A stretch of DNA of 64,000 nucleotides from a virus, in the IMG/VR virus record IMGVR_UViG_3300020185_004014, positions 1 to 64,000 of that record; one strand, given 5' to 3'. How positions within the stretch are numbered: the first letter of the stretch is position 1; each line of letters opens with the position of its first letter. Positions 28,823 to 52,358 of the stretch are shown here, piece by piece. The notes beneath the pieces were generated by a model that was given only the letters and a program-made list of their open reading frames with translations, did no database searches and had not been told where the DNA came from. The translations under genes and the position numbers were made by a program.

Positions 28823-29323
28823 ATGCACACGATTGAGGATATTGAAAAACAGTTATCTCAACTTCAAAAGTTGAATTACAATCAATTTTTTTGGTGGCGC
28901 CGTTGGGGTCGAAAATCCCAACCACTTCACAATTATTCTCCCCTGATTGAAAAAATCCGCAATGGGGATTATGATCCAAGCCCATATCTTTTTCAAATTT
29001 ATTATTGTAATTGGGAAATTGAACAAAAGTACAAACAGTTTGAAGGCGATAGTCGTGCTCAAGCTTCCGAAACTCGTGTTGATAAAGAACGCCGTCGACG
29101 TCTTACTGCTGACCACGAAAAATATGAAAAAGAAAATCTTGCCCAATTGCAAAAAGATTTTCTTACGGTTTTTCGTATGACCAAAACAGATTACAAAAGA
29201 GATTCAATTGAGGTTGGAGGCACGCCTGAGGAATTTTATAATTATTGTGATGACACTTACGGCCGATTCAATCGTCCCTCAAATATACCCCGTAGAGGTC
29301 GACCACCAAAAATTAAACAATGA
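28823..29323 (+). CDS. Hypothetical protein with C-terminal AT-hook-like motif
   Basis: 166 residues, strongly charged and helical in the middle (about 75-115, Arg/Lys/Glu-rich). The C-terminus reads IPRRGRPPKIKQ, matching the AT-hook core (R-G-R-P) that binds the minor groove of AT-rich DNA. The rest is not recognised. It is the first gene after a strong promoter and overlaps the DpdA-like gene by 4 bases, so it may be linked to DNA modification. Confidence 0.6.
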   Translation: MHTIEDIEKQLSQLQKLNYNQFFWWRRWGRKSQPLHNYSPLIEKIRNGDYDPSPYLFQIYYCNWEIEQKYKQFEGDSRAQASETRVDKERRRRLTADHEKYEKENLAQLQKDFLTVFRMTKTDYKRDSIEVGGTPEEFYNYCDDTYGRFNRPSNIPRRGRPPKIKQ

Positions 29324-30138
29324 GTATACAAGCAACAGTAAAAGGAGTAAAAGTTTCACATGAAACCCCCTTTGCATACCTCCAATCAAGTTTGGAGTAT
29401 AATGATTATGATTATCTCCTTCCTCACCTATATGATGAATACAAGGAATATAAAGAATTCTTCCAAAGAGATAATCATAGGGGAAGACGTTATATTATAA
29501 TGGATAATTCCCTTCATGAATTGGGGGTGCCTTATTCAAAGGGTAGAATGATTTCTATTATTGAAGAAATTAAACCCGATGAATTCATAGTGCCAGATGC
29601 TTGGGAAGATGCTACTTTGTCTATGAGACAAGCTAAAGAGTGGAGTTTTATTGAGTTACCTAAAGGAGTAACTAAAGTTGCGGTAGTTCAAGGTAAATCG
29701 TTTGATGACGTAGTAAAGTGTTATCAAACGTATAAATGGCTGGGTTATACGAAGATTGCATTCTCATATGGGGCTAGCTATTATAACGATATATTCCCAC
29801 ACCCCAATAAGGATGTAGGTAAAGCTTTAGGCAGGCAATTAGTTATTAGCAAAATGATTAATATGGGTCTTATAGGAAAAACCGATAGAATCCACCTTTT
29901 AGGTTGTTCTCTTCCACAGGAATTCTTATATTATAAAGATATAAAACAAATAGAAACTATAGATACATCCAACCCAGTAATGGCGGCCTTTGATGGTACC
30001 TTATATAAGGGTTGGGGGTTAAACTCCAAACCCAAAACTAAAATTGATGAAGTAATCAACTCAGAATGGGATGAAAGTATCTATGAAGGAATAAAACATA
30101 ACACTACATATTTTAAATTAATTAATAATATAACATGA
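29320..30138 (+). CDS. dpdA: DpdA-like DNA 7-deazaguanine transglycosylase (TGT fold)
   Basis: 272 residues. Features of the tRNA-guanine transglycosylase barrel: IIMDNSLHELG (about 60-70, in place of the TGT motif with Asp102), DEFIVPDAWEDA, KVAVVQGKSFDDVV, KIAFSYGA, RIHLLGCSLPQEFLYY (about 191-206, matching the TGT LMGVGTP segment), and IETIDTSNP, whose Asp sits where the catalytic nucleophile lies. The TGT zinc Cys cluster is not seen. Phage DpdA proteins exchange guanine in DNA for a 7-deazaguanine. Adjacent queC, queD and queE plus folE supply the base, which strongly supports this over a tRNA enzyme. Confidence 0.8.
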   Translation: MSIQATVKGVKVSHETPFAYLQSSLEYNDYDYLLPHLYDEYKEYKEFFQRDNHRGRRYIIMDNSLHELGVPYSKGRMISIIEEIKPDEFIVPDAWEDATLSMRQAKEWSFIELPKGVTKVAVVQGKSFDDVVKCYQTYKWLGYTKIAFSYGASYYNDIFPHPNKDVGKALGRQLVISKMINMGLIGKTDRIHLLGCSLPQEFLYYKDIKQIETIDTSNPVMAAFDGTLYKGWGLNSKPKTKIDEVINSEWDESIYEGIKHNTTYFKLINNIT

Positions 30139-30932
30139 AAAAACAAGCAGTACTATCATTAAGTGGAGGTATGGATAGCTCCACTGTGTTACTTAGGTTA
30201 TTGGCGGATGGCTATGAAGTAACAGCACTATCCTTTGACTATGGGCAGAAACACAGAGTAGAACTTGAACGAGCCCAAGCACTAGTAGATTATCTTAACG
30301 ATAATGGTCAAAATGTAAAATATGGAACTATTAAGCTTGATGGTTTGGCTCCTATGCTCAACAGTGCCCTTGTAGAAGGTGGTGATGAAGTACCTGAAGG
30401 TCACTATGAGCAAGAAAACATGAAAGAAACAGTTGTTCCTAACCGCAACAAAATATTTTCTTCAATTATTCAAGCAGTAGCATTATCAATAGCAAATGAA
30501 AAAAATACAGAGGTCCATATTGCGATGGGTATTCATGCAGGTGATCACGCAATTTACCCTGATTGCAGACAAGAATTCAGGGACGCTGACTATACAGCCT
30601 TCACCGAAGGCAATTGGGACGCTGAGCGCGTTAGCTATGTTACCCCTTATCTTAATGGGGACAAGTATGATATCTTGGTCGACGGGGCCAAGTGCTGCAA
30701 CGAATTGGGGTTACAATTTGGAAGCGTTTATAAGAACACAAATACTAGTTACAAGCCCATTAATATTGATGGTACTTGGTACAGCGATTATAAATCTGCT
30801 TCATCGGTGGAAAGGGTTGAAGCTTTTCTCAAATTGGGAAAACCAGATCCGGTATCATATGCTGATGAATCAGGACCTGTTACCTGGGACGTTGTACAGA
30901 AGCATGTTAAAAACATTTTAGCTGAAGCCTAA
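30135..30932 (+). CDS. queC: QueC, 7-cyano-7-deazaguanine (preQ0) synthase
   Basis: 265 residues. Converts 7-carboxy-7-deazaguanine with ammonia and ATP to preQ0. PP-loop LSGGMDSSTVLL (about 8-19), FDYGQKHRVEL, VVPNRNKIF, and YPDCRQEF identify it. The C-terminal zinc-binding Cys cluster normal for QueC (C-x8-C-x2-C-x2-C) is missing: the matching segment reads SYKPINIDGTWYSDYKSA with no Cys. Fold and catalytic loop are otherwise normal. ATGA overlaps with the DpdA-like gene and TAATG with queD show one operon. Confidence 0.92.
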   Translation: MKKQAVLSLSGGMDSSTVLLRLLADGYEVTALSFDYGQKHRVELERAQALVDYLNDNGQNVKYGTIKLDGLAPMLNSALVEGGDEVPEGHYEQENMKETVVPNRNKIFSSIIQAVALSIANEKNTEVHIAMGIHAGDHAIYPDCRQEFRDADYTAFTEGNWDAERVSYVTPYLNGDKYDILVDGAKCCNELGLQFGSVYKNTNTSYKPINIDGTWYSDYKSASSVERVEAFLKLGKPDPVSYADESGPVTWDVVQKHVKNILAEA

Positions 30933-31390
30933 TGTTTATATCAACTAAAGTATTTGACGGATTTAGCTGTGTGTTCCGTCAAGCTAAAGCAGAAGGTACA
31001 CATTGTAGATTTCTCCATGGATATGGAATCAGCTTTAAAGTATGGTTTGAAGGTGAACCCGATGAACGTAATTGGGTTTGGGATTTCGGGGGTATGAAAC
31101 GTGCTAAAACCGAAATTGATGGTATGAGTGCTAAAATGTGGATGGATCATATGTTCGATCACACTATGCTTGTAGCAACTGATGACCCTTTCCTTGAATC
31201 ATTTAGAAGGATGGATGAAGCAGGTGTAATCCAACTTAGAGAAATACCAGCAACAGGTGCAGAAAAATTTGCTGAGTATATTTATGGTAAGCTTAACCCA
31301 TTCGTTCAGGAAGAAACCAATGGTAGAGTTAGAGTTAAACAAGTAGAATTTAGAGAACATGGAAAAAACACAGCAATTTATGCTGAATAA
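30932..31390 (+). CDS. queD: QueD, 6-carboxy-tetrahydropterin synthase
   Basis: 152 residues. Turns dihydroneopterin triphosphate into 6-carboxytetrahydropterin, the second step to preQ0. Motifs: GTHCRFLHGYGISFKVWF (catalytic Cys and zinc His), NWVWDFGGMK, MFDHTMLV (Asp-His), and FREHGKNTAIY (Glu-His) near the C-terminus. The first zinc His of classic QueD is Ser and the HGH motif is HGY. I believe this pattern is typical of the phage and alternative QueD subgroup rather than a lesion. It overlaps queC by one base. Confidence 0.9.
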   Translation: MFISTKVFDGFSCVFRQAKAEGTHCRFLHGYGISFKVWFEGEPDERNWVWDFGGMKRAKTEIDGMSAKMWMDHMFDHTMLVATDDPFLESFRRMDEAGVIQLREIPATGAEKFAEYIYGKLNPFVQEETNGRVRVKQVEFREHGKNTAIYAE

Positions 31391-31424: not shown

Positions 31425-32060
31425 ATGAAAAATGTTTTAATGGCCCTTGGGTTGGCCTTAACTACCCTAGTTAGTTCTGCACAAACAACAGTTGTAGATA
31501 TTATTGTAAATAGTGAAGATCACACTTTGTTAGAAGCTGCAGTTGTAGAAGCCGGATTAGTTGAAGCTTTAAGTGATACAACAGGTACATTTACAGTATT
31601 TGCACCGACTGATAGTGCATTTATTGCGTTAGCAACTTCACTTCAACTCGAACCTACTGACCTATTAGAGCTACAAAATTTAACAGATATTCTTTTATAT
31701 CACGTACTTCCGGAAGTATATTTAGGAGAGGTGCTTCTTCCACCATCAATTAATTCTATGTTAACCACTTTACTCCCTGAAGAACCAATGTACATACAAT
31801 CAGATGGCATGACTATTACAATAAATGGCATAGCTTCAGTAACTGTGGCAGATCTTATTACTGACAATGGTGTTGTTCATGTTATTGATGCAGTTCTTGT
31901 ACCTAATAGTACCAACTCAGTATCAGAGCTAGAAAATAAAATCCCACAAAATAATATTTACTACAATATTATGGGTCAAGAAATTGATAGTTATGATCAA
32001 ATCCCTTTTAACTCCATTTACATTAAAAATGGTGAAAAGTTCTTAAAGATCGAAAGATAA
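31425..32060 (+). CDS. Secreted fasciclin (FAS1) domain protein with T9SS-like C-terminus
   Basis: 211 residues. Signal peptide MKNVLMALGLALTTLVSSAQ. One FAS1 domain (about 22-165): VVDIIVNSEDHTLLEAAV, GTFTVFAPTDSAFIAL, LLYHVLPE, and NGVVHVIDAVLVP. The last 35 residues (IYYNIMGQEIDSYD...SIYIKNGEKFLKIER) match the end of type A sorting domains of Bacteroidota type IX secretion. So the protein is probably exported and attached to the host surface, where FAS1 proteins act in adhesion. It lies between queD and queE in the same run. The leader holds three ATCAAA repeats. The sorting domain is shorter than usual. Confidence 0.82.
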   Translation: MKNVLMALGLALTTLVSSAQTTVVDIIVNSEDHTLLEAAVVEAGLVEALSDTTGTFTVFAPTDSAFIALATSLQLEPTDLLELQNLTDILLYHVLPEVYLGEVLLPPSINSMLTTLLPEEPMYIQSDGMTITINGIASVTVADLITDNGVVHVIDAVLVPNSTNSVSELENKIPQNNIYYNIMGQEIDSYDQIPFNSIYIKNGEKFLKIER

Positions 32061-32061
32061 T

Positions 32062-32835
32062 ATGCTTAAAAGGATAGAAGATTACGATAAAGTATTACCT
32101 GTATTAGAGGTATATCGATGCGTGCAAAGTGAGGGCTCCCGTTTCGGGCGCCCCACTATTGCCGTTCGAACCACAGGATGCACTCATAGGTGCTACTTTG
32201 GTGAAGGTGGATGGTGCGACAGTTGGTACACATCAATTCACCCTGAAAAAGGTACATTTACATTTAATGACATTATCAATATTTATGATGAGAACCCTCA
32301 AGTAAAAGAGATGATGTTAACAGGGGGTTCACCAACAATGCATCCTGCTTTAGTAAATGAACTTACCCACTTTGCCAACGAAAGAGGAATCCTCATTACA
32401 ATTGAAACCGAAGGGTCTCACTTCGTGGAAACGGATTTTCCACTTGGTCTCATATCCCTTAGCCCTAAGTTTTCTAATTCTATCCCTGTTGTGGGTGTTA
32501 CTACTCCCGGTGGTAAAGTTGTTGATGAAAGGTTTGTCAAACAGCATAACAAGTTTAGACTCCATTATGAAAATATTCAAAAAATGATCGACTTCCATAG
32601 TGACTATCACTATAAACCAGTGTGGGATGGAACTGATGAAGGTTTAGCCGAAATTGAAGAATTTAGAGTTAAAATGGATATTCCTAAGGACAAAACATTC
32701 GTAATGCCAGCAGGTGATACAAGAGAAACATTAATTGAAATGTATCCCAAAGTATTTGAGATGGTAGCAGAGCATGGTTATAATATGACTGGTCGTGATC
32801 ACATTATAGCATATGATACAGAACGAGGAGTATAA
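32062..32835 (+). CDS. queE: QueE, 7-carboxy-7-deazaguanine synthase (radical SAM)
   Basis: 257 residues. Radical SAM ring contraction of carboxytetrahydropterin. LEVYRCVQSEGSRFGRPT (about 16-33) is the QueE substrate-binding start, followed by the cluster motif TTGCTHRCYFGEGGWCDSWY (about 38-57). Cys spacing is C-x3-C-x7-C instead of C-x3-C-x2-C, as I recall from other phage QueE proteins. MMLTGGSPTMHP matches the SAM-binding GGEP region with Ser in place of Glu. It completes the preQ0 route with FolE at 42768. A terminator follows. Confidence 0.9.
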   Translation: MLKRIEDYDKVLPVLEVYRCVQSEGSRFGRPTIAVRTTGCTHRCYFGEGGWCDSWYTSIHPEKGTFTFNDIINIYDENPQVKEMMLTGGSPTMHPALVNELTHFANERGILITIETEGSHFVETDFPLGLISLSPKFSNSIPVVGVTTPGGKVVDERFVKQHNKFRLHYENIQKMIDFHSDYHYKPVWDGTDEGLAEIEEFRVKMDIPKDKTFVMPAGDTRETLIEMYPKVFEMVAEHGYNMTGRDHIIAYDTERGV

Positions 32836-32860
32836 TATCTGAATACAAAATAAAATTGAG

Positions 32861-32885
32861 AAAGGCACCTTTGGGTGCCTTTTTT
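32861..32885 (+). terminator. Rho-independent terminator
   Basis: AAAGGCACC pairs with GGTGCCTTT around a TTTG loop, followed by more T. It ends the deazaguanine operon. Confidence 0.9.
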
Positions 32886-32894
32886 AATATTTAT
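32886..32894 (+). promoter_or_regulatory. AATATTTAT motif, candidate promoter
   Basis: AATATTTAT immediately after the terminator T run and 25 bases before the metalloprotease ATG at 32920. Same 9-mer as at 17427, 19083, 19504, 49234 and 62274. Confidence 0.4.
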
Positions 32895-32919
32895 TATAGA
32901 ACGTTTTAAACAACAAGCT

Positions 32920-34896
32920 ATGAATAAATTATTTACTTTACTTTTACTGTTACTAACTCTTCCCCTTTTTGGACAAGATAGATGTGGAACCGATATATTA
33001 TTTGAACAACAACTACAAGATCCCAAATTTAAACGAAGCTATTTAAAACTTGAAAAATTAGCAAAGAAGGCAGAAGAAGCTAAAAAAGTTTTATCTATGC
33101 CTGATCTTCCCATTACAATTCCTGTAATAGTTCATGTAATTCACTTTGGTGAACCTTACGGAACTGATTACCATTTACCTGTGGAATTTATACAAGAAGC
33201 TTTTGATAATTTAAATGATAATTTTGCGGGAGAATTTAGTGATGACCCTACAACAAATACTCAAATAGACTTTTGTATAGCAAATGCTTCTACTGATGGA
33301 GAACCTATTGAAGGTATTAGATATTACGACTGGGATAATTTAGATATAGAGGAGTGGGATGCTACCGCTTTTTATAATAACCATATTGCAGTATCTAATT
33401 TATTGGGGTATGATAGGAATAATTATTGTAATGTGTTTGTTGCCCCTTTTGGTAGCCCTTTAGGATTTGCTTACCTCCCCTCGTCTAATTTTGGGGTTTT
33501 TGTAGGTACTAATGCTTTTGGTATTACTAATACAGGGAATTATGGGTTAAATAGAACTTTAGTCCATGAAATGGGGCACTATTGTGGATTATACCACACA
33601 TTCCATCAAACAAATACATGTACTCCTACTAATACTAATTGTACATCACAAGGAGATAAAGTATGTGATACACCTATTACTACAGGAAACTTTGGGTGCC
33701 CCTTAAATGGGGGTGCTTGTGGGAATTCTTTAGTAGAGAATTTTATGGATTATACTAATGATGGATGTATGGATAGTTTTACTCAAGGGCAATCCTTAAG
33801 GATGTTATCACAACTAGAAACCTTTAGACCAGGAGTGGTAAATAATAGTTTGGCATGTGGGGCTATTAATGGAGTAGATGTAGGGGTAAGTGGTTTAGCA
33901 GTACCTGATATTGGATGCTCTAATATTAAAGATATAACTTTTAATTTACAAAATTTTGGGGATAGTATAAGTGAAGCTACTATTAATTATTCTATAAATG
34001 GTGAAGATAATTTTATTACTTGGATGGGTAATTTAGGCTTTGCTGAAAGTGAGATAGTGACTATACCTAATATTAATATGGGGTATGGTATTGTTGATAT
34101 AGAGGTTAATGTAGAAGCATTAGGTGACGTATATGAAGATAATAATATTAATACCCTCCAAATTAATAATTATGAAGGTACTTTTATAGACATTACTATA
34201 GAATTTGATGCTTTACCTTATGGATTCGAATGGAGTCTATATAACTCAGATACTGAGGAATTAATTGATGAGGGGGGTTACTATGATAATGAGATATACG
34301 CATGTGAGGTTGAAACTAACACCTATTGCTTAGAAGAAGGGAATTATGTTTTAGTTTTAGAAGACCTATTCGGAAATGGTATGTTTTACCCTTGTGGGGG
34401 TCCAACTTCTATTATAAATGGTAATGATACTCTAAACACAGTAACAGGAAATTGGGGAGATGAAGAGATATTACCTTTTTATGTAGGTCCTCCTGACCCT
34501 TGCCCCCTATCAGATTGCCCTTGGGATGTAGATGGGAATGGGTACGTTTGGACTAATGACATACTTGTGATATTACAATATTATGGACTCGAAACAGAAT
34601 GTAGTCCTTTTGATATTAACCAAGATGGTGTAGTAGGAGTTGATGATATATTAGATGCTATTGCTAACTTCAACACAGAATGTACTACTGGTGAATTAAC
34701 ACCTGAAGGGGGATTTGATGCTTTTTTGAAAAATGAACAAGAGGGTAAATTAGTAACAACTACTTTATATAACATGATGGGTCAAAAGGTCCAAGAGGGA
34801 AACCACCTAGACACAGGTATATATATTATAGTTAAAGAATGGAATGTCCCTGAAGTGGGTGTTTTTGTTACTAAAGAAAAAATCTTCCGTGAATGA
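32920..34896 (+). CDS. Secreted M43 (pappalysin/cytophagalysin) metalloprotease with dockerin-like repeats and T9SS-A-type C-terminus
   Basis: 658 residues from ATG 32920; an ORF start at GTG 32875 lies inside the terminator and would spoil the signal peptide MNKLFTLLLLLLTLPLFGQ. The catalytic zinc motif LVHEMGHYCGLYHTF (about 222-236, HExxHxxGxxH) is followed by the Met-turn NFMDYTNDGCM, as in M43B. A CARDB-like region follows (about 320-420). Near 535-585 are two Asp-rich loops (DVDGNGYVWTNDIL, DINQDGVVGVDDIL), a calcium-binding dockerin pair. The end (LYNMMGQKVQEGNHLDTGIY... to KEKIFRE) fits a type A sorting domain. Likely exported through the host T9SS to cut surface or environmental protein. 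ATGA overlap with the next gene. Confidence 0.88.
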   Translation: MNKLFTLLLLLLTLPLFGQDRCGTDILFEQQLQDPKFKRSYLKLEKLAKKAEEAKKVLSMPDLPITIPVIVHVIHFGEPYGTDYHLPVEFIQEAFDNLNDNFAGEFSDDPTTNTQIDFCIANASTDGEPIEGIRYYDWDNLDIEEWDATAFYNNHIAVSNLLGYDRNNYCNVFVAPFGSPLGFAYLPSSNFGVFVGTNAFGITNTGNYGLNRTLVHEMGHYCGLYHTFHQTNTCTPTNTNCTSQGDKVCDTPITTGNFGCPLNGGACGNSLVENFMDYTNDGCMDSFTQGQSLRMLSQLETFRPGVVNNSLACGAINGVDVGVSGLAVPDIGCSNIKDITFNLQNFGDSISEATINYSINGEDNFITWMGNLGFAESEIVTIPNINMGYGIVDIEVNVEALGDVYEDNNINTLQINNYEGTFIDITIEFDALPYGFEWSLYNSDTEELIDEGGYYDNEIYACEVETNTYCLEEGNYVLVLEDLFGNGMFYPCGGPTSIINGNDTLNTVTGNWGDEEILPFYVGPPDPCPLSDCPWDVDGNGYVWTNDILVILQYYGLETECSPFDINQDGVVGVDDILDAIANFNTECTTGELTPEGGFDAFLKNEQEGKLVTTTLYNMMGQKVQEGNHLDTGIYIIVKEWNVPEVGVFVTKEKIFRE

Positions 34897-36428
34897 AAAA
34901 GTTAATATTAATTTTACTACTTTTACCCTTTAATTTATTAGGTCAATGTGATGTAGCAATTACTGATGTAAACCTTAATACTTATGAGGTTACTATTGAA
35001 GTAATTAACTCTGAAGGATGCACAGCTAATGGACCTGGTGGAGTAGATGGTGCTGTAACCATGTTACAGATAGGATACCACTTACCAGAAGCCATTGATC
35101 CTAATAATGAAGTTGTAGATTTATTAACCCTACCTGATGCTCCTTGTAGCCCCCAATGGGTAGCCAATGGGTTCACTTTAGGAATGGTAGCAAACCAATA
35201 CTCGGGATGGTGGTATAGCCCAACAGCAACCGTTACTTTTGACCCGGATTTAATGGGGGATGGTTTGGTAACAGGTGATGTGGTAGTAGTTCCACTTAAT
35301 CCCCCTGGAGATTATGTAAATACCCCATACCCCTTAGCGGAATGTGGTGATGATTTAATTGACTATTGGTTGTCTGAAGGTGAATGTATTGAATTTGTTG
35401 TATGGCAGTTAAATTATGGTGCTACTTGGCATACTGCTAATGGAGGATGGGCTGAAACTGCTAATGGCTACGTGCCTGACCCCTCTACTTACCAAGACCC
35501 TAACTGTAATAATTCATGGTACTTATGTAGAGATGAAAACCCAGGAGCAGCTGTAGCAAACCCTGATTTTTGTGAAACTATTTTAGACGAATGTAACGAT
35601 CCCATAGCATGTAATTACAATGAAAATTGGGGTGAACCTGGTGGGTTTTGTATATATTGTGATACACCTAATGGTGAAGAACTGTGTGAGGAGTATCAAA
35701 ATGTAGGGGGTTATTGGAATTTCTATTTTAATGCTTTTGACTGTTTAGAAGAAACAGAAAATGATACTATCTATATAGAATTACCTCCTGATACTATTAT
35801 AGTTACTGAAATAGATACTATTTATATAGAGTTACCTTCTGATACAATATATGAAATTGATACTCTTATAATTACTGTTACTGAAGTAGATACTTTATAT
35901 ATAGAATTACCTCCTGATACTATTACTATAATAGAAATGGATACTCTTTATATAGAGTTACCCCCTGACACAATCATAGAAACTGAATTTATATTTGTAA
36001 CTGATACTATAGTTGAAACTGAATTTATAGTGTCAGTGGATACAGTTTATGTACTTTACACTGATACAGTTACAGTATATGAGTTTATAGAAATAAACTG
36101 TGAAACAGGATTACCTTGTAGTGAATTTAGAAATGAATGTAGTATTTACATACCAAATGCTTTCACCCCAGACAATGATGGGTATAATGATGCTTGGGAA
36201 ATAGTGTTAGACCCTGAATGTTGGACTGATGTTAAAGCTAAAGTAATAAGTAGATGGGGGGATGTTGTATGGGAATCTAACGATCCCAACAATTTAATTT
36301 GGAATGGCAGTTATGAAGGGGGAGATTATTATGTACAAGAAGAAATGTATATGTGGGTGTTTCAAGCACGAAAAAAAGGAACAACTGAAATTAAAGACTT
36401 AAAAGGATATATTACAGTTATACGTTAA
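34893..36428 (+). CDS. Secreted surface protein with CHU_C (T9SS type B) sorting domain
   Basis: 511 residues. Signal peptide MKKLILILLLLPFNLLGQ. The N-terminal 210 residues form a Trp/Gly/Pro-rich beta domain. Near 230-262 is a Cys motif (CNDPIACNYNENWGEPGGFC) like those repeated in flavobacterial secreted proteins. Then come about six repeats of DTLYIELPPDTI (about 289-390), a Thr/Pro stalk. The C-terminal 95 residues (IPNAFTPDNDGYNDAWEI, SRWGDVVWES, KGYITVIR) are a full gliding-motility type B sorting domain. Probably a stalked adhesin or partner of the protease, since the two genes overlap by 4 bases. No enzymatic motif was recognised. Confidence 0.85.
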   Translation: MKKLILILLLLPFNLLGQCDVAITDVNLNTYEVTIEVINSEGCTANGPGGVDGAVTMLQIGYHLPEAIDPNNEVVDLLTLPDAPCSPQWVANGFTLGMVANQYSGWWYSPTATVTFDPDLMGDGLVTGDVVVVPLNPPGDYVNTPYPLAECGDDLIDYWLSEGECIEFVVWQLNYGATWHTANGGWAETANGYVPDPSTYQDPNCNNSWYLCRDENPGAAVANPDFCETILDECNDPIACNYNENWGEPGGFCIYCDTPNGEELCEEYQNVGGYWNFYFNAFDCLEETENDTIYIELPPDTIIVTEIDTIYIELPSDTIYEIDTLIITVTEVDTLYIELPPDTITIIEMDTLYIELPPDTIIETEFIFVTDTIVETEFIVSVDTVYVLYTDTVTVYEFIEINCETGLPCSEFRNECSIYIPNAFTPDNDGYNDAWEIVLDPECWTDVKAKVISRWGDVVWESNDPNNLIWNGSYEGGDYYVQEEMYMWVFQARKKGTTEIKDLKGYITVIR

Positions 36429-37131: not shown

Positions 37132-37575
37132 ATGAAACATTTATTTGTATTATTTAATTTAGTTTTTTTAGTTGTTATTGGTTGCCATTCCCAAAAAATA
37201 GGGTATGAGTTAAGAACAAACGGTAAATCATACCTTACTATAAGTCATAAAATACACGATAAAGGTGGATTAGAATTAAGACACAAAACTGACTTAGGCG
37301 AAAACCGATTTACTTATAGACACAATTTTAAAGTAACAGACAAAGTAGTGTTTAGTGTTCCACTTCACTACAAAAAAGAAAAAAACGAACCTACTTGGGA
37401 ACCTCGTTTAATTTATAAATTTGATAAATTTAAACTTTGGGTGCAACAAGAATTTTGGTTTGACGAGATATATAATTTAGCAATCGCAACCGACATACCT
37501 TATAAAAATTATGTTTACCGAGTTGGTTGGGATACATCAAACACAATACGATTTAGAATTTCAATTAAAATTTAA
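37132..37575 (+). CDS. Predicted lipoprotein, beta-rich
   Basis: 147 residues. Lipoprotein signal LFVLFNLVFLVVIGC (lipobox VIGC, Cys about 18) then alternating beta strands without a recognised family (GLELRHKTDL, FTYRHNFKV, WVQQEFWF). It could be a small outer-membrane barrel or periplasmic-face lipoprotein. It sits two bases after thyX and just before the phosphate transporter, within the group of envelope genes. Confidence 0.6.
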   Translation: MKHLFVLFNLVFLVVIGCHSQKIGYELRTNGKSYLTISHKIHDKGGLELRHKTDLGENRFTYRHNFKVTDKVVFSVPLHYKKEKNEPTWEPRLIYKFDKFKLWVQQEFWFDEIYNLAIATDIPYKNYVYRVGWDTSNTIRFRISIKI

Positions 37576-37584
37576 CACAACAAA

Positions 37585-38523
37585 ATGAGTTTATTAGCAA
37601 TGGTAGGTTTTGCACTTGCCGGTTATTCAGTTATCGCTAACGATAGCGTTCAAACATTAGGCACTTGGATTGCCTCTAACAGAGAAAAATTTAAATGGTA
37701 CGTAATGTGGGCTGCTGCCTCAGCAGTAATGATAGGCACCTTAGTTTATGGATGGGTTACATATGATGGAGATATTTCATTTGGAAGATTAACCAAAATA
37801 CCATTCCAAGAAGTACAATGGTATCATGCATTAGCTCCATTAGCACTAGTTGCTCTTACTAGAAAAGGTATTCCTGTATCCACTTCATTCCTTGTACTTT
37901 CAGCATTTGCTTCTACTTTTGTACTTGAAAAAATGCTACTTAAAAGTGTAGTAGGATATGGATTGGCAGCTATTGCAGCTTATACTTTATGGTTTATTGT
38001 TTCAAATTTCTTTAATGAAGACAAAGACATTAAAGAAGAAAATAAAAAATATTGGAGAATAGGACAATGGTTTACTACAGGTTTCCTTTGGTTCACTTGG
38101 CTTTCACATGATGTAGCTAATATTGCTGTATTCCTCCCCCGCCAACTTTCAGTTGTAGAACTTATAGGAGTAATTACTTTCTTTACAGCTGGTTTAGGAT
38201 GGATTTTCTACCAACAAGGGGGTAAAATTCAACAAATTGTTCTTGACAAACAAAACACTAAATATGTTAGATCAGCTACCTTTATTGATTTAGTGTATGC
38301 TTTCCTATTACTTTATTTTAAACAGATAAATAACATTCCTATGTCAACTACTTGGGTATTTGTTGGATTGTTGTGTGGTAGAGAATTAGCATTGAATACA
38401 TACCTTACTAAAAAGGGTAATCTTAAACAAGTATTCCCAATTGTTGCTAAAGACTTCCTTAAACTTTTAGTTGGACTGGTAGTATCAGTTGCAATTGTAT
38501 TGTTAATACATTACGTTTTATAA
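37585..38523 (+). CDS. PiT-family inorganic phosphate transporter (PHO4-like)
   Basis: 312 residues with about eight to nine hydrophobic helices. The inverted PiT signature repeats are present in altered form: YSVIANDSVQTLGTW (about 14-28) and LSHDVANIAVFLPRQ (about 172-186), each followed later by a ProxSerThr helix (GIPVSTSFLVLSAF and NIPMSTTWVFVGLL). The protein is shorter than usual PiT permeases and lacks the large central loop. In the family this is proton- or sodium-driven phosphate uptake across the inner membrane. Phage DNA synthesis in phosphate-poor sea water would benefit. Confidence 0.8.
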   Translation: MSLLAMVGFALAGYSVIANDSVQTLGTWIASNREKFKWYVMWAAASAVMIGTLVYGWVTYDGDISFGRLTKIPFQEVQWYHALAPLALVALTRKGIPVSTSFLVLSAFASTFVLEKMLLKSVVGYGLAAIAAYTLWFIVSNFFNEDKDIKEENKKYWRIGQWFTTGFLWFTWLSHDVANIAVFLPRQLSVVELIGVITFFTAGLGWIFYQQGGKIQQIVLDKQNTKYVRSATFIDLVYAFLLLYFKQINNIPMSTTWVFVGLLCGRELALNTYLTKKGNLKQVFPIVAKDFLKLLVGLVVSVAIVLLIHYVL

Positions 38524-39152: not shown

Positions 39153-41891
39153 ATGAGACAAATCTCAAAATTTGCTTTAGTGGGAGTTCTTTGCATGATC
39201 TCTTCACTATCCTTTGCCCAAATTACGGGTAAAGTCACTGATGCTACTACAGGCGATGGCCTACCTGGAGCAACAGTTTTAATAGAAGGTAACACTACTG
39301 GTATTTCAACCACTGTAGATGGTACCTTTAAACTAGATGCTACACCAGAGGGAACTTTGGTGGTCAGCTTTATCGGTTATGAAACTGCTAATTTGACAGC
39401 TAAAACTGATATGGGAAATATTTCCTTACAACCTACAGCATTAGGCTTAGCAGCAGCTTCAGTTGTTGCTAATGTAATTGATGTAGCTAAGGTTAGAGAA
39501 ACCCCTGTAGCTGTATCTACAATCTCCCCTCAAGAGATTGCACTAAAAGTAGGAAACCAAGAGTTTCCTGAAATTATGAATTCCACCCCTGGTGTTTATG
39601 CTACAAAGCAGGGAGGTGGATATGGTGACTCACGTATTAGTTTACGTGGTTTTGACCAACGTAACACATCTTTCCTTATTAATGGTCAACCTGTTAATGA
39701 TATGGAAAATGGGTGGGTTTATTGGTCCAATTGGCAAGGTCTAACTGATGTTGCCTCTGGTATCCAAATCCAAAGAGGTTTAGGTGCTTCTAGACTCGCA
39801 GTGCCTTCTGTTGGAGGTACTGTTTCTATTTTCACTAAAGCTGCTGATAAAGAACAGGGTGGTAGTGTTTCCCAAACCATTGGTAACGATGGTTACACTA
39901 AAACTTCTGCTAACTATAATAGTGGTAAAAATGAAAACGGATGGGCTACATCTTTCTTGTTAAGCAAATGGGCTGGTAACGGCTATGTTGACAACACCTC
40001 AGGAGAGGGTTGGACATACTTTGGTGCTGTAGGTTATGAACCAGAAGGATCAAAACATGCCCTTAATTTATCTGTTTTAGGAGCAGGTCAGTGGCACCAT
40101 CAAAGAGATGTTTGGGTATCAATCCGTGACGCTCAAACTTTTGGAGAACAAAATAGTGATGGTATTAATACCCGTTGGAATTCAAATGGAGGTACTTTAA
40201 ATGGTGAGGAGTTTAGCATGCGTAGAAATTTCTATAATAAACCACTTGCTACTTTTAACTGGGATTGGGATATTAATGAAAATCTAGCCCTCAATACTTC
40301 ACTTTACGGCTCAGCTGGTAGAGGTGGTGGAACAGGTCCTCGTGGTAAAAATTACAATGTCCACCCTTATAGAAAGGATTTGTATGAATTTATGTACGAG
40401 GATAGTATTACACAATTCCGTAATGAGGATGGTACTATTGATTTTGATGCTATTGTTGCTGATAACCAAGCGGGTGCCAGTGCTGGATATGGAACAGGTG
40501 ATTCATTGTTAATGGGTAGTGATTTTTATGGCCAGTTAATTGGTTCTAATGGTTATAATGAAAATGGTGTTTACAAAAGTGGTATGGTTCGTAGAGCTTC
40601 TATGAATTCACATGACTGGGTAGGTGCAATTTCAAACCTCGAATATGATAAAGATAATTGGAGAGCATCTATTGGTTTAGATCTTCGTAGATATAAAGGA
40701 TATCACTATCGTACTATTAATAACTTAATGGGATTTGATGCTTATTACTCTACAGGTAATGATAACAGTAACGGTCAATTTGTTAATACAACTGTTGAAG
40801 CTAGCCCATTCCAAAACACCGGTTTAAACGGTCCTAAAATTGATTACTACAATGTTGGTAATGTTGGATGGGCTGGTGTCAATGGTTTAGTTGAATACAG
40901 TGATGACGATAAATTAACAGCAGTTGTCCAAGCTGGTCTATCTAACCAATCTTTCCAACGTGAAGATTATTTCGACCAAGCACAAAACCCCATCTCAGAA
41001 ACTGCCAACTTAACTGGAGGGTATCTCAAGGGAGGTGCTAACTATAACTTAGATGAGGCTAGTAACGTATTTTTTAATGCCGGCTTTATCTCACGTCAAC
41101 CTAACTTTGGAGGTGTTTTCCCAAGCTATGCTAACAATATTAATGACGAACTCCAAAATGAAGAAATTACATCATTTGAGTTAGGATATGGTTATAATAG
41201 TGATGTATTAACACTTAATGCTAACGTTTATGCTACTACATGGGGTAATAGGTTCCGTTCATTATCTTTGACAAACGCTCAAGGTATTGATGGATTTGCC
41301 CAATTTAGGGACATTGACGTGCAGCATAATGGTGTTGAACTAGAAGGCGTTTATCGTCCAACTAACCGTTTAAAAGTTAAAGGTGCTCTATCTATAGGTG
41401 ATTGGAGATACACTAAGAACTTTGAAGCTGAATTGTTTGATGACCAACAGCAATCTATTGGTACTGGTACTCTTTACACTGAAGGTGCTAAAGTTGGTGA
41501 TGCTGCTCAATTTGTAGCGAATGCCGGTGTAGATTATAGAATCGGAAATAATATTAATGTTGACTTAGCCTATAGATTTGTAGATGGGTTATACGCTGAT
41601 TATGGAATTACTGATTCTGATTTTGCTAATCCTGATAACTTAGGTGCTTTGAAATTACCTTCATATGGTTTGGTAGATTTGGGTGCAACAGCTCGTTTTA
41701 ATCTGTTTGACCACGATGCTTCATTCAGAGTTAACTGTAATAACTTACTAAATACAACCTATATCGCTGAGTCTAATACTAACATCCATGCTGATGAAAA
41801 TTCAACTACATGGAACGGTGTTGACACACAGAACTTTGTATGGTTTGGATTTGGGCGCACTTGGAATGCTTCGTTGAAATACACATTCTAA
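39153..41891 (+). CDS. TonB-dependent outer-membrane receptor
   Basis: 912 residues, full length for the family. Signal peptide MRQISKFALVGVLCMISSLSFAQ. A carboxypeptidase regulatory-like domain follows (about 24-95: ITGKVTDATTGDGLPGATVL, FKLDATPEGTLVVSFIGYET), the arrangement typical of Bacteroidota receptors. Plug domain about 110-225 (VRETPVAVSTISPQEIA, ISLRGFDQRNTSFLINGQPV, VGGTVSIFTKAA). Then a long 22-strand barrel region ending NASLKYTF with the terminal Phe of outer-membrane proteins. Such receptors import siderophores, vitamins or glycans using TonB energy. No SusD partner follows. It has its own promoter and terminator. Ligand unknown; alternatives to uptake are superinfection exclusion or phage decoy. 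Confidence 0.93.
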   Translation: MRQISKFALVGVLCMISSLSFAQITGKVTDATTGDGLPGATVLIEGNTTGISTTVDGTFKLDATPEGTLVVSFIGYETANLTAKTDMGNISLQPTALGLAAASVVANVIDVAKVRETPVAVSTISPQEIALKVGNQEFPEIMNSTPGVYATKQGGGYGDSRISLRGFDQRNTSFLINGQPVNDMENGWVYWSNWQGLTDVASGIQIQRGLGASRLAVPSVGGTVSIFTKAADKEQGGSVSQTIGNDGYTKTSANYNSGKNENGWATSFLLSKWAGNGYVDNTSGEGWTYFGAVGYEPEGSKHALNLSVLGAGQWHHQRDVWVSIRDAQTFGEQNSDGINTRWNSNGGTLNGEEFSMRRNFYNKPLATFNWDWDINENLALNTSLYGSAGRGGGTGPRGKNYNVHPYRKDLYEFMYEDSITQFRNEDGTIDFDAIVADNQAGASAGYGTGDSLLMGSDFYGQLIGSNGYNENGVYKSGMVRRASMNSHDWVGAISNLEYDKDNWRASIGLDLRRYKGYHYRTINNLMGFDAYYSTGNDNSNGQFVNTTVEASPFQNTGLNGPKIDYYNVGNVGWAGVNGLVEYSDDDKLTAVVQAGLSNQSFQREDYFDQAQNPISETANLTGGYLKGGANYNLDEASNVFFNAGFISRQPNFGGVFPSYANNINDELQNEEITSFELGYGYNSDVLTLNANVYATTWGNRFRSLSLTNAQGIDGFAQFRDIDVQHNGVELEGVYRPTNRLKVKGALSIGDWRYTKNFEAELFDDQQQSIGTGTLYTEGAKVGDAAQFVANAGVDYRIGNNINVDLAYRFVDGLYADYGITDSDFANPDNLGALKLPSYGLVDLGATARFNLFDHDASFRVNCNNLLNTTYIAESNTNIHADENSTTWNGVDTQNFVWFGFGRTWNASLKYTF

Positions 41892-42767: not shown

Positions 42768-43463
42768 ATGGAAAATAAAAGAAGAAAGTTGCACAACGAT
42801 ATTGAGTGTGTGCCTGTGGGTTATGCCAATGGATCAGCAATGGATCGACCCCTTACATCTCATGAAAAGGAGGTAATGATTAATGAAGCAGCAGATGCTT
42901 ATAGTAAATTTTTAGATGCCTTAAAATGTGATTGGAGAAACGACCCTAATTCAATGGAAACACCTAAAAGGGTAGCTAAAGCATATGTAAATGACTTATG
43001 GGCGGGTAGGTATAACGGATTCACAGATATTACGTCTTTTCCTAGTGATGGTTATGACGGTATTGTCATTGAACGTAATATTCCCCTTACTAGTATGTGT
43101 TCCCATCATCACCAAACTATTAGAGGTGTTGTTCATATTGGTTACGTCGCAGGAGCCGAAGGAAGAGTAATTGGTTTATCTAAACTTAACCGAATTGTAG
43201 AACATTTTGGAAGAAGGGGAGCAATCCAAGAACAACTCACCTCAGCTATCCATGGGGGTGTAGAAAAGGTATGTGAAGGTAATTTAGGAGTTATTGTTAC
43301 TATAGTTGCTACCCACAACTGCGTAAGTTGTAGAGGCATTAAACATTCAGGAGCAGCTATGGTAACAACTAAAGCATCTGGTGTATTTAGAGATGATACA
43401 AATCAAGCACGTAAAGAATTTTTCGATAGCTTGAAAATTAACAATGGAGGACATCAAATTTAA
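42768..43463 (+). CDS. folE: GTP cyclohydrolase I
   Basis: 231 residues. Converts GTP to dihydroneopterin triphosphate, the entry to preQ0. Zinc and active-site motifs are SMCSHHHQTIRGVVHIGY (about 108-125), VIGLSKLNRIVEHFGRR, and THNCVSCRGIKHSGA (about 184-198). An N-terminal extension of about 40 residues is present. It is separate from queC, queD and queE but together they complete the route. Adjacent to HPRT with no gap. Confidence 0.95.
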   Translation: MENKRRKLHNDIECVPVGYANGSAMDRPLTSHEKEVMINEAADAYSKFLDALKCDWRNDPNSMETPKRVAKAYVNDLWAGRYNGFTDITSFPSDGYDGIVIERNIPLTSMCSHHHQTIRGVVHIGYVAGAEGRVIGLSKLNRIVEHFGRRGAIQEQLTSAIHGGVEKVCEGNLGVIVTIVATHNCVSCRGIKHSGAAMVTTKASGVFRDDTNQARKEFFDSLKINNGGHQI

Positions 43464-44300: not shown

Positions 44301-44548
44301 AAAAATTATTATACTTTAGCGCGCCATGGTGCTCACCTTGTAAAACACTAGGCCCTATCATGGAACAAGTAAGCCAACAAGTTAACGTTAAAAAAATTAA
44401 TGTTGATGATAGCCCTGAAATGGCATCTCATTATGGAGTACGAAACGTCCCCACTGTAATTTCAATCACAGAACTTGGGGAAGAAAAAGGTAGACTTGTA
44501 GGAGTACAATCAGGTCAAACCTATATCGATATGTATAATCAAATTTAA
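44297..44548 (+). CDS. Thioredoxin (WCSPC)
   Basis: 83 residues, a minimal thioredoxin with active site FSAPWCSPCKTLGP (about 7-20) and cis-Pro segment GVRNVPTVISI. The active-site dipeptide is SP rather than GP. Second thioredoxin of the window; the two may serve different partners. TAATG coupling to the next gene. Confidence 0.9.
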   Translation: MKKLLYFSAPWCSPCKTLGPIMEQVSQQVNVKKINVDDSPEMASHYGVRNVPTVISITELGEEKGRLVGVQSGQTYIDMYNQI

Positions 44549-45591
44549 TGTTTAAGAAGCTACAAGAGAGAATATTCCCCTTTGTAATAGCCTTAAGTGC
44601 CCTATCAGTATCGGCATCTGCAGCATTTTACTCAGTCACTGGACTAAGTAAATTGTTTGCAGGTGCTTCAACTGAGGTGTTCATAATGGCGGGGTCATTA
44701 GAAATTTCTAAACTTGTAATAGCTTCACTATTATACCAATATTGGGATACTCTTAATAAATTACTTAAAATTTATTTAAGTATAGCTTGTTTAGTATTAA
44801 TATTGATAACATCTGCTGGTATTTATGGGTTCTTATCGGCTGCTTATCAAGAAACTGCGGCCCTAGCGGGTAATATTGATGCTCAAATTTCTTTAGTAGA
44901 AGTTAAAAGGGATAATATTCAAGAACAGTTAGCGGTTTATAATGAAGAAAAATCTTCTATTAACGAGGCCGTAACTGAATTAAGATCGGGGTTATCCAAC
45001 AATGTAATACAGTATAAAGACAAGGAAACCGGTGAGATTATAACAACTACTTCATCTTCTACTCGCAGAGCATTAGAAAAACAACTTGATCAGGCTATTG
45101 ATAGACAAACTAAAATTAATAATAAAGTTGACGAACTGAATACCCAACTATTTGAATATGAAACTGAAATAGTTGAAATCCAATCAGGGAGTGAAGTTGC
45201 AAGCGAGCTAGGTCCCCTTAAATACCTCTCTGGATTAACAGATGTAGGTATGGATTCTATTATAAATTATCTTCTTTTAATAATAATTTTTGTTTTTGAC
45301 CCTTTGGCCATAGCTTTAGTAGTAGCTGCAAATTTTGCTTTTGCCCAATTAAAATCTAAAAATAAACCTAATGAGGCTTTAAAGCAAGCCTATGAAAGAC
45401 ATAAAAAAGAAGTTATAAAAGAAGAGGATTTAGATTTAGATGAATTAGTATTAAAAAGTCAAGTTTCAAAAATCAAAAAGGAGAAACCATTAGAGGTATA
45501 CGGGGAAACTAATCCCCCATCAACCCAATCCCCCCCTCCTCCACCTCCTCATTCTTTTAAAAAAAAAAGAGGAGCAACCCCACAGATTTAA
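44548..45591 (+). CDS. Multi-pass membrane protein with central coiled coil
   Basis: 347 residues. Three hydrophobic helices in the first 100 residues (VIALSALSVSASAAFYSVTG, VFIMAGSLEISKLVIASLL, IYLSIACLVLILITSAGIYG). A long coiled coil follows (about 105-215), then another helix pair (IINYLLLIIIFVFDPLAIAL) and a charged tail with seven consecutive Pro. Similar unnamed membrane proteins occur in T4-like phages. Function unknown; it may anchor a complex at the inner membrane. Confidence 0.6.
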   Translation: MFKKLQERIFPFVIALSALSVSASAAFYSVTGLSKLFAGASTEVFIMAGSLEISKLVIASLLYQYWDTLNKLLKIYLSIACLVLILITSAGIYGFLSAAYQETAALAGNIDAQISLVEVKRDNIQEQLAVYNEEKSSINEAVTELRSGLSNNVIQYKDKETGEIITTTSSSTRRALEKQLDQAIDRQTKINNKVDELNTQLFEYETEIVEIQSGSEVASELGPLKYLSGLTDVGMDSIINYLLLIIIFVFDPLAIALVVAANFAFAQLKSKNKPNEALKQAYERHKKEVIKEEDLDLDELVLKSQVSKIKKEKPLEVYGETNPPSTQSPPPPPPHSFKKKRGATPQI

Positions 45592-49693: not shown

Positions 49694-50128
49694 ATGACAC
49701 ATTTAATGTTAAACCCGGACTTTGCAAGTCCACTTGACGTACTCGTCAAAAACTTTTTCGACTCACAAGGCAAATTTGAAGCCCCAAGTCGCCCAAACGT
49801 AACACATCCCATTGATGTGTTTGAAGATGAAAACGGTCTTACACTCGAAGTAGCTTGTACCGGCATCGATAAAAAAGACGTAAAAATTAGTATTGAAGGA
49901 GATATCCTTAGACTTTCTTATGATAAAGGAAAACCCATGCCTAAAAAGGAAGAAAATGGGGTCCGATACTATCATGCAGGTATTAAAAAAAGCAATTTTA
50001 ATTTAGGCTGGAAAATCTCTCGTAGATTTAACCTAACCAAATCCAGTGCTGAAATGGTGAATGGTTTACTTGTACTTAGTATTCCTTTTGCTACTGAAGC
50101 AAAACCTAAATCAATTACTATAAAGTAA
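49694..50128 (+). CDS. Small heat-shock protein (Hsp20/alpha-crystallin)
   Basis: 144 residues. Alpha-crystallin domain about 38-140: HPIDVFEDENGLTLEVACTG, DILRLSYDKG, and the signature SAEMVNGLLVLSIPF near the end. Such proteins hold unfolded client proteins in the cytoplasm. T4-like cyanophages also carry one. Its own promoter, flanking repeats and nearness to GroES/GroEL suggest a coordinated chaperone unit. Confidence 0.93.
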   Translation: MTHLMLNPDFASPLDVLVKNFFDSQGKFEAPSRPNVTHPIDVFEDENGLTLEVACTGIDKKDVKISIEGDILRLSYDKGKPMPKKEENGVRYYHAGIKKSNFNLGWKISRRFNLTKSSAEMVNGLLVLSIPFATEAKPKSITIK

Positions 50129-50139
50129 TCCACTTTAGG

Positions 50140-50171
50140 GTTGGTGTCCTGAAGATCCCTTCGTATATTCC
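50140..50171 (+). promoter_or_regulatory. Bacteroidota-type promoter of chaperonin operon
   Basis: GTTG (50140-50143), 20 bases, TATATTCC (50164-50171) within CTTCGTATATTC. The spacer holds the right arm of the inverted repeat, so a repressor bound there would block RNA polymerase. The ATG at 50195 follows. Confidence 0.5.
50143..50157 (+). repeat. Right arm of inverted repeat, candidate operator
   Basis: GGTGTCCTGAAGATC is the reverse complement of the left arm at 49626-49639 apart from one inserted base. It sits between the -33 and -7 elements of the chaperonin promoter. Confidence 0.45.
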
Positions 50172-50194
50172 CGCATAAAGCAAAAATAAGTTAC

Positions 50195-50448
50195 ATGAAT
50201 CACATCAAAGACCCCATTCTGGGAGAATATTTCATCCAAATTGATGATTACAATTACTCAGCGTTTAAAACTATTACGCCTGATAGTGGGATTACGTATG
50301 ATCATAACATTGGTCATTTTTCTAGTTTAGGAAATGCCCTTAAAAGGATTGCCGAGCATAAAGTTCGTCAACAATCCTATAGTAGTATTAGAACTTATAT
50401 TACTGAATTAAATAACATTTATAACGAATTTAAACAAAACTTTTTGTA

Positions 50449-50449
<1 letters not shown>
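50195..50449 (+). CDS. Hypothetical protein upstream of groES
   Basis: 84 residues, mixed alpha/beta, with SSLGNALKRIAEHKV in the middle. No family recognised. First gene of the chaperonin operon, TAATG-coupled to groES. Confidence 0.55.

Positions 50450-52358
<1,909 letters not shown>

Follow-up and report, generated by a model that had tools for sequence, protein, structure and literature searches.

The window analysed here is a stretch of 64 kb out of the 66,619-base IMG/VR virus record IMGVR_UViG_3300020185_004014. It carries three genes, called here FAS, M43 and CHU_C, which an earlier note, made from the sequence alone, had described as a fasciclin protein, an M43 protease and a CHU_C protein, each with a signal peptide and a C-terminus of the host's type IX secretion system (T9SS). 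All three open reading frames (ORFs) were confirmed on the + strand (Table 1), and a home-made simple rule calls a signal peptide on each protein. They stand among phage genes, as described, but are not contiguous: a QueE gene which that note had missed splits FAS from M43. The start of the CHU_C gene overlaps the M43 stop.

CHU_C has the clearest sorting domain. It passes TIGR04131, the type B C-terminal domain (CTD) model, with a match reaching the C-terminus (38.1 bits against a cut-off of 35, 1.3e-9), which bears out the type B claim and means that the C-terminal models did not fail for all three proteins. In a genome search the same model finds CHU_C at 6.3e-12 and gives matches in 0 of 14 control genomes, and PF13585 is passed as well (4.4e-13, 49.6 bits against 27). 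The structure model is poor, with a predicted local distance difference test (pLDDT) score of 48. An IMG/VR search with the single CHU_C sequence returned zero relatives, and relatives were recovered with an alignment as query. In two of the IMG/VR contigs compared here (handles beginning with L), L131 and L132, a single polypeptide of about 950 amino acids joins an M43 domain, a CHU_C N-domain and a type B CTD, and in L133 and L151 the M43 and CHU_C genes are adjacent. This fusion and adjacency link M43 and CHU_C in function and place. In INPHARED, type B tails were found solely in two huge uncultured phages of 634-642 kb (type B CTD-like matches at LR756502.1 418040-418381 and LR745206.1 27691-27963), the search giving a weak match for M43 and none for FAS. 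Two further short proteins (L046:1393-1770 and L045:1171-1770) consist almost entirely of a signal peptide and a type B CTD, leaving hardly any room for a passenger, and are possible decoys or shuttle ligands.

M43 is a metalloprotease, as the earlier note had it: it matches PF05572 (2.8e-14), and the HExxHxxGxxH motif together with the family profile places it in Peptidase M43. Its matches to ulilysin (2.3e-20) and mirolysin (2.5e-18) both start ahead of the catalytic core. The start codon is more plausibly the ATG at 32920 than the GTG at 32875. The protein is 65-75% identical to phage copies and at most 36% identical to the cellular copies found among 295 Bacteroidia genomes, which are a sample, so that closer cellular relatives may exist. 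Its C-terminal tail scores 8.4 bits against a type A hidden Markov model (HMM) trained on 26 C-termini, of which 23 are a sample from Bacteroidia genomes and three belong to cellular M43 relatives; none of 200 shuffles scores as high, and the tail ranks top among all C-termini of the window. When three phage M43 tails were compared with 12 canonical CTDs, hhalign gave a probability of 89% and an E-value of 2.4e-6, the latter for a single comparison without database correction. By eye, the motif D region has GIYI. The tail seems to be a type A match that is weak but above chance.

FAS contains one fasciclin domain (PF02469, 1.3e-24, 87.2 bits against a cut-off of 22), again in line with the earlier note, and has relatives in contigs L006-L025. 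Its tail is conserved: against the L007 copy, the last 46 codons are 93% identical, and the whole protein 79%. The tail family also ends an exported 179-amino-acid phage protein of L152 (the family is also found on L143), and that tail scores 23.7 bits with the short-tail HMM and 15.8 bits with the type A HMM, where the shuffled maximum is 7.9. The FAS-tail model also matches, weakly, a cellular secreted protein, L282, which ends NKYYNIMGMNVKNPVKGLFIYNGKKIIK. In L020 and L021 the FAS homologues have a canonical type A CTD at their C-terminus (TIGR04183 5.5e-14 and 2.2e-15). Because of this conservation, the sharing with L152 and L282, and the type A CTDs of L020 and L021, the FAS tail is termed a short signal that may be type A-like but does not belong to TIGR04183; its family is linked to type A indirectly, through the bridging L152 sequence.

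The reading that we consider likely is that FAS, M43 and CHU_C are cargo which the infected Bacteroidota cell exports through its own Sec and type IX secretion systems. Judged from sequence, the claim that phage cargo is sent this way to the cell surface is best supported for CHU_C and probable for M43, and for FAS it depends on the indirect link. Sec of the host would export the three proteins and the T9SS would then translocate them: M43, as a zymogen, and probably FAS by the type A/PorV route through their short C-terminal tails, and the stalked CHU_C by the type B route, with a PorP/SprF shuttle supplied by the host. The cargo would stay on the surface of the infected cell or be shed from there, as part of a wider envelope set that includes a small outer-membrane-protein-like (OMP-like) protein, a PiT phosphate permease, a TonB-dependent receptor and a membrane protein encoded at 44548.

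Several observations count against this proposal. The signal peptides were called by a rule of our own making, and some of the IMG/VR contigs may stem from related samples. The type A ends that the earlier note gave to FAS and M43 are not confirmed by TIGR04183: both miss the cut-off in a whole-protein scan, and the model has zero matches anywhere in the record, even at E<=1. Against the type A HMM the FAS tail is not significant, with 8 of 200 shuffles reaching its score, and hhalign against canonical type A profiles gives it 0.8%. Motif D of this tail is spaced G-x-x-Y and not G-x-Y; in the window it is N-x-x-Y, the region reading F-N-S-I-Y-I by eye. In F. johnsoniae, type B secretion requires PorP/SprF shuttles (PMC12618676), and the 66.6-kb record encodes no PorP/SprF, which would leave its type B cargo reliant on a shuttle of the host. 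That could work for CHU_C, given that orphan type B substrates are known (PMC12618676).

The gene order QueC-QueD-FAS-QueE-M43-CHU_C-ThyX-OMP-PiT is kept in contigs L007, L008 and L011, and L006 has the same order up to the start of M43, where the contig ends. The cluster is partly present in L147 and L151, and L017-L019 carry FAS alone, between QueC and QueE. Since L007, L008 and L011 have near-identical loci and sample numbers close to each other, they count as only partly independent; a different sample yielded L006 and L147, and still another yielded L151. Codon usage, which the earlier note had named beforehand as a check that could overturn its reading, gave no shift: the correlation with the rest is 0.96 for M43, 0.94 for CHU_C and 0.84 for FAS (mean 0.875, standard deviation 0.066). 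Between the window and L007, the ratio of nonsynonymous to synonymous substitution rates (dN/dS) is 0.18-0.25 for the cargo genes and 0.04-0.12 for 13 other genes, values that are approximate because dS is high (0.4-1.5). The cargo genes are under purifying selection yet change fast, as exposed proteins do.

The envelope set, which the earlier reader had overlooked, came into view by comparison with a 270-kb contig, G004, which has a T4-type terminase (phrog_2, 2.4e-38) and T4-like replication genes. Identity between the two is 78% for FAS and 75% for M43 and ranges from 61% to 89% for the other four envelope genes (Table 1); the remaining genes in common are 25-49% identical, with core genes at 27-49%. 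All six genes at 60% identity or above encode exported or membrane proteins (P ~7e-6, with a rough classifier by which 13 of 77 proteins are of this type). At the DNA level, windows of 93-98% identity in M43 and 94-96% in FAS lie beside windows at 42-87%, which suggests recent recombination of M43 and FAS between the window phage and G004. The best explanation of the pattern is that the cargo, the OMP, PiT, the TonB receptor and the 44548 membrane protein are traded among unrelated phages, presumably of the same hosts.

G004 also encodes a PorP/SprF shuttle, likewise missed before, which matches PF11751 with 154.9 bits against 22.3 over profile positions 3-271 of 273 and lies about 7 kb from a type B cargo of 998 amino acids. 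Copies 82-100% identical occur in three further IMG/VR contigs, and among the cellular copies listed from the 295 genomes identity is at most 39%. The small OMP of the window was also considered as a PorP/SprF and ruled out, as Pfam gives no support. The 270-kb phage additionally has an ORF that by eye resembles phosphoenolpyruvate carboxykinase (L009:8405-9877).

The TonB-dependent receptor belongs to a large phage family. Relatives are encoded in 421 IMG/VR stretches, some of whose records could be contaminated; the best 80 of the 421 are 63-93% identical to the window receptor and are mostly found beside T4-like genes from the same group of phages. Among the sampled Bacteroidia genomes, full-length matches reach at most 47% identity, and closer relatives may exist outside the sample. 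The Plug and barrel Pfam domains are present, and the SusC/RagA model TIGR04056 matches the N-terminal part only, at 72.5 bits against a cut-off of 368. The structure model is weak (pLDDT 52), and its fold search, which matches siderophore, copper and pyrroloquinoline quinone (PQQ) transporters, supports just a TonB-dependent transporter.

What the set is for can be read in two ways. The likeliest purpose, which we propose tentatively, is surface modification that would affect competing phages or the adsorption of progeny; such phages would probably give an infected cell a new surface, and passengers that change quickly and recombine speak for a contest there, by superinfection exclusion or receptor removal. 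An alternative that is nearly as likely is nutrient capture, in which M43 at the cell surface would break down extracellular protein for uptake of the products by the TonB receptor, and the OMP and PiT would supply phosphate for phage DNA synthesis. The OMP-PiT pair and the TonB receptor are kept in both phage lineages at 72-89% identity, which favours uptake, and the SusC-type receptor of a marine megaphage was given that reading (PMC9723777). Against it, fast evolution and recombination mark the cargo passengers, in contrast to the conserved PiT and OMP, and the fold matches of the TonB receptor point to no single substrate. Surface contest and nutrient uptake may be separate jobs of a single envelope set.

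It is unlikely that FAS, and perhaps M43, is merely periplasmic or otherwise exported, leaving CHU_C as the only T9SS cargo. The insignificant FAS tail score and the negative TIGR04183 result would fit, but tails of this family are also borne by an exported passenger unrelated to FAS and by a secreted protein of cellular origin, and FAS homologues have canonical type A tails. Ig-like decorations are common on phages, and with the adhesin-like domains and the stalk one could see the three proteins as adhesins or decorations of the virion whose C-terminal domains are structural. This seems improbable given their signal peptides, the fusion of M43 to a type B domain, and the position of the genes amid queuosine and metabolic genes, away from the tail-like genes at 1-17 kb. 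An assembly chimera or host contamination, which the bacterial style of the genes and the absence of a PHROGs family for all three might suggest, is rejected with near certainty, because the gene order is repeated in separately assembled contigs, codon use is typical of the phage and M43 is nearer to phage copies than to the cellular ones found.

Nearly all genes of the window lie on the + strand. Names in this paragraph are partly by eye, some of them with profile support. Besides the tail-like genes at 1-17 kb there are RecA-like, primase, DnaB, ribonucleotide reductase, queuosine, chaperonin and clamp-loader genes. QueC, QueD-like, QueE and FolE-like genes, with a phrog_19058/DUF6610-like gene, lie at 29320-31390, 32062-32835 and 42768-43463, and are likely a set for 7-deazaguanine synthesis, perhaps with a role in DNA modification. 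HSP20-, GroES- and GroEL-like genes were recognised by eye at 49694-52358. Positions 1-505 are low-complexity repeats within an open frame that extends to 2197.

Table 1. Positions and supporting evidence for the cargo genes, their parts and the associated envelope genes.
Feature	Position	Strand	Description or evidence
FAS	31425..32060	+	Signal peptide, one fasciclin domain, short C-terminal tail; 211 amino acids
FAS short tail, possible short type A-like sorting signal	31914..32057	+	Residues 164-211; HMM seed 176-211
QueE	32062..32835	+	Between FAS and M43, 1-nt gap after FAS; TIGR03365 2.3e-14, below curated cut-off
M43 metalloprotease	32920..34896	+	Signal peptide, prosegment region, catalytic domain, dockerin-like repeats (by eye), type A-like tail; 658 amino acids
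M43 zinc motif HEMGHYCGLYH	33565..33597	+	Sequence
M43 type A-like tail LYNMMGQKV...GIYIIV...EKIFRE	34765..34893	+	Shuffle test, hhalign
CHU_C protein	34893..36428	+	Signal peptide, N-domain, cysteine-rich ACNYN segment, DTIYIELPPDT stalk, type B CTD; 511 amino acids
CHU_C stalk repeats, DTIYIELPPDT type	35763..36098	+	Sequence
CHU_C T9SS type B CTD	36147..36425	+	TIGR04131
Small exported OMP-like protein (beta-barrel by eye)	37132..37575	+	Adjoins PiT; 72% identical in 270-kb phage
PiT/PHO4-type phosphate permease	37585..38523	+	PF01384 5.4e-9, over cut-off; 89% identical in 270-kb phage
TonB-dependent receptor	39153..41891	+	CarboxypepD_reg, Plug and barrel domains; 80% identical in 270-kb phage
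Multi-transmembrane membrane protein	44548..45591	+	61% identical in 270-kb phage
PorP/SprF T9SS shuttle	L294:7458-8447 = G004 147458-148447	-	PF11751 4e-45

The earlier note knew of no previous description of phage-encoded T9SS cargo, but Bellas et al. 2020 described it in Cryophage (PMC7468147). There, too, type A sorting domains sit on varied passengers, the cargo genes are variable, and the authors read this as a hijack of the host T9SS; the passengers are endoglucanase, GH39 and PA14 proteins of a cryoconite phage, whereas the phages described here are marine, have as cargo M43, a fasciclin protein and a stalked protein of type B, and exchange genes with a giant phage that encodes a shuttle. 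T9SS sorting domains have also been reported close to crAss-BACON ORFs (PMC6949934). The megaphage Mar_Mega_1 and LR745206 encode a SusC-type, TonB-dependent receptor interpreted as serving nutrient uptake (PMC9723777); the window receptor differs in belonging to a large family across T4-like marine phages and in falling far under the SusC/RagA cut-off. Phage M43 resembles the M43B peptidases mirolysin and ulilysin in its catalytic motif and in a match that includes the prosegment side, and differs in its extra dockerin-like repeats and type A-like tail, with one relative fused to a type B CTD. CHU_C resembles type B substrates with PorP/SprF shuttles, such as SprB/SprF of F. johnsoniae (PMC12618676), in that a type B CTD is borne by a putative adhesin; in the giant phage a distance of about 7 kb separates cargo from shuttle. 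The difference is that these are encoded by phages and that the window phage has no shuttle in the available sequence. The short tails may be akin to the short CTDs of Prevotella intermedia, which are cleaved and glycosylated (PMC11969387), in a length of 40-55 amino acids, a Y..G motif B, Tyr-Ile in motif D, a basic motif E and a signal peptide; the motif D spacing of FAS differs.

Given the Cryophage, crAss-BACON and megaphage reports, the kind of system is known; as far as the literature searched shows, novelty seems to lie in the variant, in the shuttle and in the envelope genes that the phages have in common. What appears new in the variant is the occurrence of type A-like and type B cargo together, a conserved but recombining marine cargo, the fusion of M43 with CHU_C in relatives, and fast cargo evolution. 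In the titles and abstracts of the literature searched no report of a phage PorP/SprF was found.

We give about an even chance to the broader proposal that unrelated marine Bacteroidota phages share and recombine genes for rebuilding the envelope, some of them bringing a PorP/SprF with type B cargo, that is, part of the T9SS pathway itself. If the cargo does reach the surface, marine Bacteroidota would, for as long as an infection lasts, present themselves to competing phages, neighbours and grazers as cells of another kind and behave as such, and might also differ in the food that they digest and import. Short tails beyond Prevotella would broaden the known T9SS signal. The shared envelope genes and the phage PorP/SprF make the idea of surface remodelling testable in a model Flavobacterium.

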